Shown here in pieces: positions 17,915-53,649 of a stretch of 64,000 bases of DNA. The stretch lies in contig NZ_JALJRB010000006.1 in NCBI RefSeq assembly GCF_022968795.1, positions 1 to 64,000 on the forward strand, written 5' to 3'. This DNA is from Desulfatitalea alkaliphila. Lineage in GTDB: Bacteria > Desulfobacterota > Desulfobacteria > Desulfobacterales > Desulfosarcinaceae. Every line of letters begins with the position of its first letter. Positions within the stretch are counted from its first letter, which is position 1. The position numbers and the translations under genes are program-made. Under the pieces are notes generated by a model that was not told the DNA's origin, did no database searches, and was given only the letters and a program-made list of their open reading frames with translations.

Positions 17915-18388
17915 GTGGCCGATGGCAAGGGACGATATGCTCAAATTGTTCAGAAGCTCAAGACGCATGGGCATCATCTGACGCCCCAGCGTTTGGCGAT
18001 CATTAAGGCGATTGTCGAAAGCGACCGGCATCCCAGTGTTGAAGAGATCCACGCCCGGCTGCGCAAGACCTTTCCCACCATGAGTTTGGCGACGGTCTAT
18101 CGCAATGTGATGTTGCTCAAATCCCTGGGGGAGGTGCTGGCCCTGGGCTTTCCCGACGGCAGCAACCGCTACGACGGCCGGCATCCCTTCCCCCATCCCC
18201 ATGTGGTTTGCGTGCGGTGCAAAAAAATCGTCGACCCCGAATTGCAAAGCGGCCGGGAACTGGCCCGTGCGGTGGGCGATGCCACGGGTTTTCGCATCCT
18301 GAGCCACCGGTTGGATTTTTTCGGCATCTGTAGGGATTGCGAGGCCGCCGGCAAGAAGGGTTGCGGTGCCGGCCAGGCGGCAAAGTAG
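17915..18388 (+). CDS. Fur-family transcriptional regulator, PerR-like
   Basis: This is a metal-dependent repressor of 157 residues. The N-terminal winged helix is typical (HLTPQRLAIIKAIVESDRHPSVEEIHARL, with MSLATVYRNVMLLKSLGEV as the recognition region). The dimerisation half has metal-site histidines (FPHPHVVC) and two CxxC pairs, CVRC and CRDC, for structural zinc. The start is GTG 17915, 8 bases after AGGAGG. Position ahead of a peroxiredoxin suggests a peroxide-sensing PerR role rather than iron control; sequence alone does not settle this. Confidence 0.88.
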   Translation: MADGKGRYAQIVQKLKTHGHHLTPQRLAIIKAIVESDRHPSVEEIHARLRKTFPTMSLATVYRNVMLLKSLGEVLALGFPDGSNRYDGRHPFPHPHVVCVRCKKIVDPELQSGRELARAVGDATGFRILSHRLDFFGICRDCEAAGKKGCGAGQAAK

Positions 18389-18521: not shown

Positions 18522-18731
18522 ATGGTTGAGAAGAAATTCAAACAGGTGTGCGAGTGCAAGAATTGCGGCAATGAAGCGGAAATGGAAGTGACGTGCACCC
18601 TTGCCGAAGATGTGGCGGAGGCGCAACCGAAAGTCGTTGCCGAGGCCGAAGGCCATATCAAGGGCCACGCGGTCTGCACCCATTGCGGTGGCGAGGCCGA
18701 TATCTGGCTGGATGTGCCCCTGAAGCCCTGA
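18522..18731 (+). CDS. Small zinc-ribbon-like protein, function unknown
   Basis: The 69-residue protein starts at ATG 18522, 9 bases after AAAAGGAGG. It has CECKNC near the N-terminus and CTHC near the C-terminus, so a single zinc or iron site made of two CxxC knuckles is likely. A GTG at 18501 in frame would place the ribosome site inside the gene and is rejected. It lies between the PerR-like regulator and the selenoprotein peroxiredoxin. It may be an electron carrier or redox sensor; no family is recognised with confidence. Confidence 0.75.
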   Translation: MVEKKFKQVCECKNCGNEAEMEVTCTLAEDVAEAQPKVVAEAEGHIKGHAVCTHCGGEADIWLDVPLKP

Positions 18732-18821
18732 CACCAAACTTGTCCACCCCGCCCCTGCCTGCGGATTGCGGCCCGGACGGGGCGCTGACGGGTGGACGGC
18801 AACCAGCCAAAGGAGGTTCAT

Positions 18822-19544
18822 ATGGCGGAAGAGATGGCGGTGGGATGTGCCCGCCCGACCGGGGGGCCGGTCGGAGAGGCGGTGGCGCCGGAAACATCAA
18901 CCCCGGAAAAAGCACCCGTAAAGGAGGTGGCACCCATGATCAAACTCGGAAAAAAAGCGCCTGATTTTGCCGCTCCGGCGTATTTGCAGGGAAAGTTCGT
19001 TTCGGTCAAACTCTCGGAGTACTTGGGTAAATGGGTGCTGTTGTGTTTTTATCCGGGTGATTTCACCTTTGTCTGAGCGACGGAGATTTCGGCAGTTGCC
19101 GAAAAACACGCAGAATTTCAGAAACTGGGTGTGGAAATTCTCTCCATGAGCATCGACAGCGTTTTCGTGCACAAGATGTGGAACGACAACGAGCTTTCCA
19201 AAATGGTCCAGGGCGGCGTTCCCTTCCCCATGCTGTCGGATGGCGGCGGTCGTGTGGGTAAGGTTTACGGTGTCTATGACGAGGACGCCGGAGTGGAGAT
19301 GCGGGGCCGTTTCATCATCGATCCCGAAGGGGTGATCCAGGGTTATGAGATGCTGACCCCACCGGTGGGGCGCAATATTCAGGAGAGCATTCGCCAGGTG
19401 CAGGCCTTCCAGGTGGTGCGAGACAGCAAAGGCGCCGAAGCCACGCCATCGGGATGGCGGCCCGGCAAGACCACTCTCAAGCCGGGACCGGACCTGGTGG
19501 GCAAGGTGTGGGAAGTGTGGAAAACCGGCATGGCCTTCGATTAG
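18822..19544 (+). CDS. Selenocysteine-containing peroxiredoxin (AhpC/Prx1-like)
   Basis: This thiol peroxidase reduces peroxides; the peroxidatic residue is encoded by TGA at 19074-19076, in the motif PGDFTFV-U-ATEI where cysteine is usual. Reading through gives 240 residues with Sec at 85. The conserved downstream region is intact ([35 protein letters not shown]). The usual C-terminal resolving cysteine (VCPxxW) is replaced by ATPSGW, and no cysteine follows Sec. The only others are C75 and C9 in a 38-residue N-terminal extension (GCARPTGG). Two starts are possible, each after AAGGAGG: ATG 18822 (chosen) and ATG 18936, which gives the standard AhpC N-terminus ([11 protein letters not shown]) and puts Sec at 47. 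Confidence 0.92.
19087..19104 (+). promoter_or_regulatory. Candidate bacterial SECIS element
   Basis: TTTCGGCA and TGCCGAAA form a perfect 8-bp stem around GT, starting 10 bases after the TGA. The loop G lies about 18 bases downstream of the TGA, within the range accepted for SelB-dependent recoding. Nothing else in the gene would explain so exact a hairpin here. Confidence 0.85.
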
Positions 19545-19646: not shown

Positions 19647-19718
19647 GTAGGGGCACGGCACGCCGTGCCCTGTTCGGGAGGATCGGATCTTATTGGGCAC
19701 GGCGTGCCGTGCCCCTAC
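19647..19718. repeat. REP-like palindrome pair in inverted orientation
   Basis: Two copies of a palindromic unit (core GGCACGGCACGCCGTGCC), one preceded by GTAGG and one followed by CCTAC, face each other around a 24-base spacer. The pair lies in the 372-base gap between the peroxiredoxin and NAD kinase genes. The rest of that gap holds no gene that I can support. Confidence 0.75.
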
Positions 19719-23163: not shown

Positions 23164-23188
23164 GTAGGGGCACGGCATGCCGTGCCCG
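23164..23188. repeat. REP-like palindrome
   Basis: GTAGG leads into the palindromic core GGCACGGCATGCCGTGCC. The same element is found at 19647-19718, 29219-29246 and 53626-53649. It lies between phoU and the convergent twin-repeat lipoprotein gene. Confidence 0.75.
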
Positions 23189-29218: not shown

Positions 29219-29246
29219 GCAGGGGCACGGCATGCCGTGCCCCTGC
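29219..29246. repeat. REP-like perfect palindrome in the pstS-pstC gap
   Basis: A 28-bp perfect palindrome whose centre is GGCACGGCATGCCGTGCC, flanked by GCAGG and CCTGC. It lies in the 270-base gap between pstS and pstC. In other operons such hairpins reduce read-through and stabilise the upstream mRNA, which would fit a need for more PstS than permease. Confidence 0.8.
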
Positions 29247-53625: not shown

Positions 53626-53649
53626 GTAGGGGCACGGCATGCCGTGCCC
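53626..53649. repeat. REP-like palindrome
   Basis: GTAGG followed by the core GGCACGGCATGCCGTGCC, between vapB and the dehydrogenase gene. It matches the elements at 19647, 23164 and 29219. Confidence 0.75.

Follow-up and report, generated by a model that had tools for sequence, protein, structure and literature searches.

Selenocysteine peroxiredoxins have been catalogued as the family PrxU (NF040737), which we take to be named after a selenoprotein of Eubacterium acidaminophilum. That protein was reportedly described by Sohling in 2001, a study cited in PMC13188914 and PMC9312934. It is said to have 203 residues with selenocysteine (Sec) at position 47. A number of bacterial genes, including infB, cheA and clpB, have two in-frame starts, and we know of no example of this among peroxiredoxins or selenoproteins; a search of the PubMed Central open subset for a peroxiredoxin or selenoprotein with two starts also found none. 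A full-text search of the same subset for PrxU with selenocysteine led to Sulfobacillus only. Peroxiredoxin appears in the tables of PMC1794560 as a selenoprotein of Syntrophobacter, Syntrophus, Anaeromyxobacter and Geobacter metallireducens, and a table in PMC13188914 includes a Sec peroxiredoxin family, for which the motif is printed as PxxxTxxU.

The gene described here lies in a 64,000-nucleotide stretch of the Desulfatitalea alkaliphila genome (the window), and all features given below are on its forward strand. With TGA translated as Sec (U), positions 18822-19544 form a single frame of 240 residues, which contains one recoded codon, U85 (TGA at 19074-19076), followed by 155 further residues and a TAG stop at 19542-19544. 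The original prediction had placed the TGA exactly at the peroxidatic position of a peroxiredoxin whose frame stays open for more than 150 residues, and this is what we find. The context of U85 is PGDFTFV-U-ATEI, and the PxxxTxxU motif is present with its Sec (P78-GDF-T82-FV-U85). With a Cys letter standing in for Sec, the product scores 416.9 bits against NF040737 over residues 7-235 (cut-off 270), and 183 bits against the AhpC model TIGR03137, which is under the cut-off of 272. The Pfam families AhpC-TSA and 1-cysPrx_C (PF10417; 27.3 bits, cut-off 21.1) both match. In the PDB, 132 distinct sequences match, the best at 2.4e-49, and all of the 60 matches listed are named as peroxiredoxin-type proteins. 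Judged by its sequence, the gene is prxU, encoding a selenocysteine peroxiredoxin of the AhpC/Prx1 type, and by analogy with the family Sec85 would be the peroxidatic residue that reduces peroxide. The match over the NF040737 cut-off rules out a new selenoprotein family, and the selenoprotein itself is a further member of one already catalogued. Matches over this cut-off occur in 130 of 395 genomes of the phylum, and most of those listed contain an internal TGA.

Two sets of homologues were compared. One consists of 110 loci that are close by design, being 30 from the phylum search, among which is the window's own locus, and the 80 best of 330 named matches. The other is a phylum-wide sample of 149 homologues, made up of every row listed in the phylum search except one fragment (G388:C337), weaker matches being unlisted.

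The first 38 residues (18822-18935) form an N-terminal arm, composed of a conserved tip and a variable linker. In alignments of close relatives the tip is conserved, the linker varies in both length and letters, and a conserved Met precedes the core. The arm is present in 108 of the 149 phylum-wide homologues and absent from 41. Desulfatibacillum alkenivorans (L083) and Desulfonema magnum (L097) are two cultured species that carry it. The tip carries Cys9 (codon TGT, 18846-18848), and the armed class of the phylum-wide sample is defined by a Cys-bearing tip, so that all 108 members have this Cys by construction. A less circular count comes from the 110 close homologues, themselves the best matches, in which the Cys is found within a CxRPxG tip in 109, the remaining row (L109) having Ns there. 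The exact tip string of the window is found in 28 of the 108 armed rows, and others include GCVKPAKGPI, SCVKPSRGPI and GCGKPTGSVV. As an exact DNA pattern the tip occurs once each in 20 of the 40 genomes searched (this one and relatives) and is absent from the other 20; its sole match in the window's own genome is prxU. The ratio pN/pS is 0.42 at the tip compared with 0.81 in the 12 codons before an internal ATG discussed below, with synonymous sites near saturation. Retention of the tip while the linker varies, together with the lower pN/pS at the tip, suggests that the arm is conserved as protein. The NF040737 model already spans most of it, matching from residue 7. In an AlphaFold2 model of the monomer, based on an alignment of 39 sequences, residues 6-36 have pLDDT below 50, and the arm is disordered and unplaced. 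Neither an N-terminal extension of Sec peroxiredoxins in sulfate reducers nor the tip motif (full-text search) was found in the PubMed Central open subset, which is weak evidence, given that most subscription journals lie outside it.

The original prediction also stated that the protein has no resolving cysteine downstream of Sec, with ATP in the place of the usual VCP. This is correct: C9 and C75 are the only cysteines of the product, there is none after residue 85, and the place where many relatives have the resolving Cys (VCP or ACP) is occupied by A207-T208-P209 (19440-19448). Across the phylum-wide sample, a C-terminal Cys of the CPxxW, PCGW or GKVC kind is found in 8 of 108 armed proteins (6 of CPxxW type and 2 GKVC), compared with 36 of 41 armless ones. 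Four more armed proteins have some other Cys in the tail, and five armless proteins have no C-terminal Cys. The sole armed Cys form, L169, also has no C-terminal Cys. Because armed proteins mostly lack the C-terminal Cys and armless ones mostly have it, C9 appears to be the likeliest resolving residue. This assignment is moderately supported, and few independent evolutionary events lie behind it: no more than three changes account for the arm label on the tree, and the swap between arm and C-terminal Cys was not significant in an independent-pairs test, where the 2-3 independent contrasts available are too few. Reduction had been proposed to proceed through C9, C75 or an outside partner, and the comparison favours the first of these without proving it.

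The main competitor is that this is a true 1-Sec peroxiredoxin, in which Sec depends on an outside thiol for its reduction or has Cys75 as its partner, the arm Cys serving in docking, regulation or metal binding. We regard this as the less probable reading, though one with a substantial chance of being right. Cys75 (19044-19046), 10 residues before Sec, tracks the arm nearly as closely as C9 does, with 107 of 108 armed homologues having it against 10 of the 41 without an arm, and it could be the partner instead. A disordered arm would also suit such an enzyme, and a separate group with neither arm nor C-terminal Cys does exist (L136, L146, L150 and L153). On the other hand, the tip Cys is kept while its neighbours drift (though rows are classed as armed by that Cys), and arm and C-terminal Cys have a near-complementary distribution. 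Moreover, the armless proteins L238 and L239 carry CPxxW, and their nearest tree neighbours, after each other, are armed. We therefore retain C9 as the preferred partner of Sec85.

Several other Sec peroxiredoxins were seen in these comparisons. The separate group just mentioned has the sequences YGGDYTFVU and EFTPADW, and is found in genomes G207, G183, G230 and G367; three of these genomes (G207, G230 and G367) have an armed PrxU as well. In the armless Sec peroxiredoxins L133, L135, L140, L148, L151 and L155 the C-terminal Cys occurs in GKVCxIW or GRVCEIW, some 20-25 residues past the usual CPxxW place. Two Sec peroxiredoxin genes lie side by side in G289:C11 (L160 and L163), and two others are about 5 kb apart in G140:C46 (L212 and L217).

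The arm ends at what looks like a second start. The first start, ATG at 18822, has the Shine-Dalgarno (SD) sequence AAGGAGGT at 18810-18817 (the window is row L042), and 81% of 104 rows have a first-start SD of -8 kcal/mol or lower. Met39 (ATG, 18936-18938) is preceded by an SD sequence of its own, AAGGAGGTG at 18921-18929, with 8 bases from the AGGAGG core to the ATG. Initiation here would give a product of 202 residues with Sec at position 47. An ATG is present at the junction of arm and core in all 108 armed genes of the phylum-wide sample. The 80 named loci have 79 ATG and one GTG at this position; the GTG is in L092 (Thermodesulfovibrio sp. N1), which thus keeps a start codon and not the Met. 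The predicted duplex of the internal SD with the 16S tail is -6 kcal/mol or lower in 106 of the 108 armed genes and -8 or lower in 105, the exceptions being L233 (an ATG with no SD match), L192 (-5.6) and L033 (-7.9). The run stands mostly at one spacing before the Met. In the 110 close loci, the SD reading left out 9 rows whose core was unmatched by the pattern used.

The SD signal goes beyond what the encoded residues require. The internal SD has a mean energy of -11.32 in 103 genes. Synonymous shuffles (200 per gene, with codons drawn from that gene) give -6.65, the stretches preceding 515 other Met codons average -4.78, and the first start reaches -10.28. The 103 genes are those of 104 rows that have an ATG in the search range; four armed rows (L218, L233, L240 and L241) were omitted from this set, and all four are in the 108-gene counts. 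In the named loci, 78 of 80 were parsed as armed and gave -10.81, against -5.17 for shuffles, the two outside being L057 (its match starts with ATA) and L109 (Ns in the arm). Codon choice points the same way: over the five codons that lead up to the internal ATG, GAG outnumbers GAA 106:22, whereas downstream of it the two are nearly equal (712:681). A scan of mock starts over codons -24 to +24 gave one dominant peak at the real ATG, spread over neighbouring codons. Local RNA structure at the internal start is among the weakest tested (-4.2, compared with -5.2 to -12.4 away from the junction), and an A-rich linker would give the same. The internal start codon is thus conserved together with a separate Shine-Dalgarno sequence that goes beyond codon constraint. 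From this conservation we strongly infer that two isoforms, of 240 and 202 residues, are produced from two starts. The second start is missing from the original prediction, and would be an overlooked feature common to arm-bearing relatives. A search of the PubMed Central open subset found no description of the arm or second start of PrxU, and nothing relevant on internal translation initiation in a peroxiredoxin, which again is weak evidence, most subscription journals being outside it.

It is unlikely that the gene has a single 240-residue product, the internal SD-like run being either a relic of the ribosome binding site of an armless ancestor or a side effect of the linker favouring Lys-Glu-Val. 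A relic would be expected at first: in all 41 armless relatives an ATG lies no more than 14 codons from the core, with an SD energy of -6 or lower in 39, and this is presumably their ordinary start, at the position corresponding to Met39. Lys-Glu is also common before the Met. However, shuffling synonymous codons for the same residues loses much of the signal, and the residues just before the ATG change freely, as their pN/pS of 0.81 indicates. The GGAG run is kept with other residues (QEG in L023, REA in L020, EEV in L048 and KEM in L063), and after clustering at 75% identity all 11 armed representatives retain an energy of -8 or lower. The GTG of L092 also argues against a relic or by-product. 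The opposite suggestion, that only the internal start is used and the arm is an annotation extension, is very improbable: the internal SD is slightly stronger than the first (-11.3 compared with -10.3), but the tip is conserved as protein, and in most rows the upstream frame is uninterrupted and has a start and SD to itself.

Some 21-27 codons before the internal ATG, the tip region of the 108 armed genes has the strongest predicted RNA structure near the starts, at about -11.5 to -12.4 kcal/mol in 40-nt windows. This might reflect GC-rich coding only, or might affect the choice of start.

In both products the TGA would be read as Sec. The organism is probably a desulfobacterial sulfate reducer, going by its nearest named matches alone. 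The genome assembly (5.07 Mb in 98 contigs, 99.68% complete) contains selA (605 bits), selB (380 bits), selD (367 bits) and a tRNA-Sec (73.5 bits, gathering score 47), so that all the components named in the original prediction are present. TGA is found at the Sec85 codon in 110 of 110 close homologous loci, with the frame kept. In the phylum-wide sample, 107 of 108 armed proteins carry Sec, as do 31 of the 41 without an arm. The selD gene (G000:C16:32576-33502) has an in-frame TGA of its own, and selenophosphate synthetase is probably a selenoprotein too.

A hairpin that fits a bacterial SECIS element lies at 19087-19104, UUUCGGC-AGUU-GCCGAAA, with the loop at 19094-19097. It had been described as a perfect 8-bp stem-loop 10 bases after the TGA; the spacing of 10 is right, but the stem has 7 bp, the next flanking bases being A and A. 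Folding alone places it moderately ahead of shuffled sequences (z of -1.9 to -2.5 in three windows). Base pairing was compared in 205 distinct Sec homologues, drawn from 218 in the pooled named loci and phylum-wide sample: 95% of pair cells are standard, compared with 60% in 11 Cys forms. When the pairing partner was shifted by 1 to 3 positions, the share in the Sec homologues fell to 36-46%, except at -3, where it was 75%. Two-sided changes are seen at three of the seven pairs, for example at pair 14/29 (TA 98, GC 51, CG 27, AT 9) and pair 17/26 (GC 130, AT 60, CG 7, TA 3). The bSECIS rules, as they appear in PMC13188914, are a loop of 3-9 nt with G as its first or second base, a stem of 4-16 bp, a distance of 16-37 nt between UGA and loop, and a minimum free energy of -7.5 or lower. 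The prxU hairpin lies within these limits as given there, with a 4-nt loop having G second, a 7-bp stem, 17 nt from UGA to loop, and -11.4 kcal/mol.

Decoding of the UGA at 19074 as Sec by SelB and tRNA-Sec is supported, because selA, selB, selD and tRNA-Sec are present, TGA is found in all 110 close loci, the hairpin has two-sided changes, and it conforms to the bSECIS rules; the original reading of the gene as a selenoprotein thus gains support from each of these. TGA is a stop in table 11 and a downstream ORF begins at 19131, but a truncated gene followed by a separate ORF is ruled out for practical purposes by the four sel components, the TGA with frame kept in 110 of 110 loci, and the SECIS pair changes.

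The surroundings of prxU are less informative. Upstream is a Fur-family regulator (17915-18388) whose best NCBIfam match is PerR, at 115 bits and below the PerR cut-off of 180, followed by a gene for a 69-residue protein with CxxC pairs (18522-18731) that matches nothing in Pfam or NCBIfam. The gene on the downstream side is NAD kinase-like. The locus had been called a peroxide-stress operon. The PerR-like neighbour is indeed present, but of the 73 named loci for which more than 1500 upstream bases are available, only 8 have a PerR match, which is a thin basis. The 69-residue neighbour had no tblastn match in the 80 named loci at E 1e-4, a search in which a short protein may be missed. Among 10 flanking ORFs, picked crudely from five isolates, no family is shared, and two match none. 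A conserved operon is rejected on the rarity of PerR in the named loci, the lack of a match to the 69-residue protein there and the differing flanks of the five isolates. Among the window neighbours tested with family profiles there was no electron donor. A palindrome, GGGGCACGGCNNGCCGTGCCC, occurs in the window at 19650-19715, 23167-23187, 29222-29243 and 53629-53649, two copies being just after prxU. Across the genome it has 112 forward and 112 reverse matches at up to one mismatch, a count in which a palindrome can score on both strands; its reversed control has none.

Taken together, we think it on balance probable that prxU encodes a Sec peroxiredoxin with two starts in one frame, in which Cys9 replaces the C-terminal resolving Cys. 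SelB and tRNA-Sec, acting at the hairpin that follows, would decode the UGA at 19074, and Sec85, as in the family, would reduce peroxide. Initiation at ATG 18822 would give the 240-residue protein with a flexible arm and the Cys-bearing tip near its end, and initiation at ATG 18936 would give the 202-residue core with Sec at residue 47. On the arm, Cys9 may stand in for the missing C-terminal Cys and form a selenenyl-sulfide with the oxidised Sec, to be reopened by thioredoxin or a similar donor. How often each start is used relative to the other might, speculatively, set the number of arm-bearing subunits. A more far-reaching and rather doubtful suggestion is that armed and armless subunits are mixed by design in one oligomer, the arm Cys of a long subunit resolving the Sec of a short one in trans, so that the cell would set reducibility, and possibly a signal given by the short form when oxidised, through its choice between two ribosome binding sites.

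If the second start is real, annotated PrxU proteins may be only half of the output of the gene, and it is an easy place to test for programmed isoforms in an antioxidant enzyme. With the arm, there is a concrete, testable proposal for the turnover of a Sec peroxiredoxin that lacks the usual resolving Cys.

Compared with described systems, the protein is closest to PrxU (NF040737), with Sec at the peroxidatic position in both and a model match that covers almost all of the protein, most of the arm included. The E. acidaminophilum PrxU, with its reported 203 residues, is about as long as the short product proposed here. The typical 2-Cys AhpC (TIGR03137) is related in sequence and has an identical active-site motif apart from Sec; in contrast, the prxU product is under the AhpC cut-off, has Sec in place of Cys and lacks the C-terminal resolving Cys. 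Peroxiredoxins of the 1-Cys Prx6 type likewise lack that Cys, and PF10417 matches the prxU product, but the best NCBIfam matches here are PrxU and AhpC, and here there is a conserved arm Cys. As read here, prxU resembles infB, cheA and clpB in that one gene would give a long and a short product from separate ribosome binding sites.
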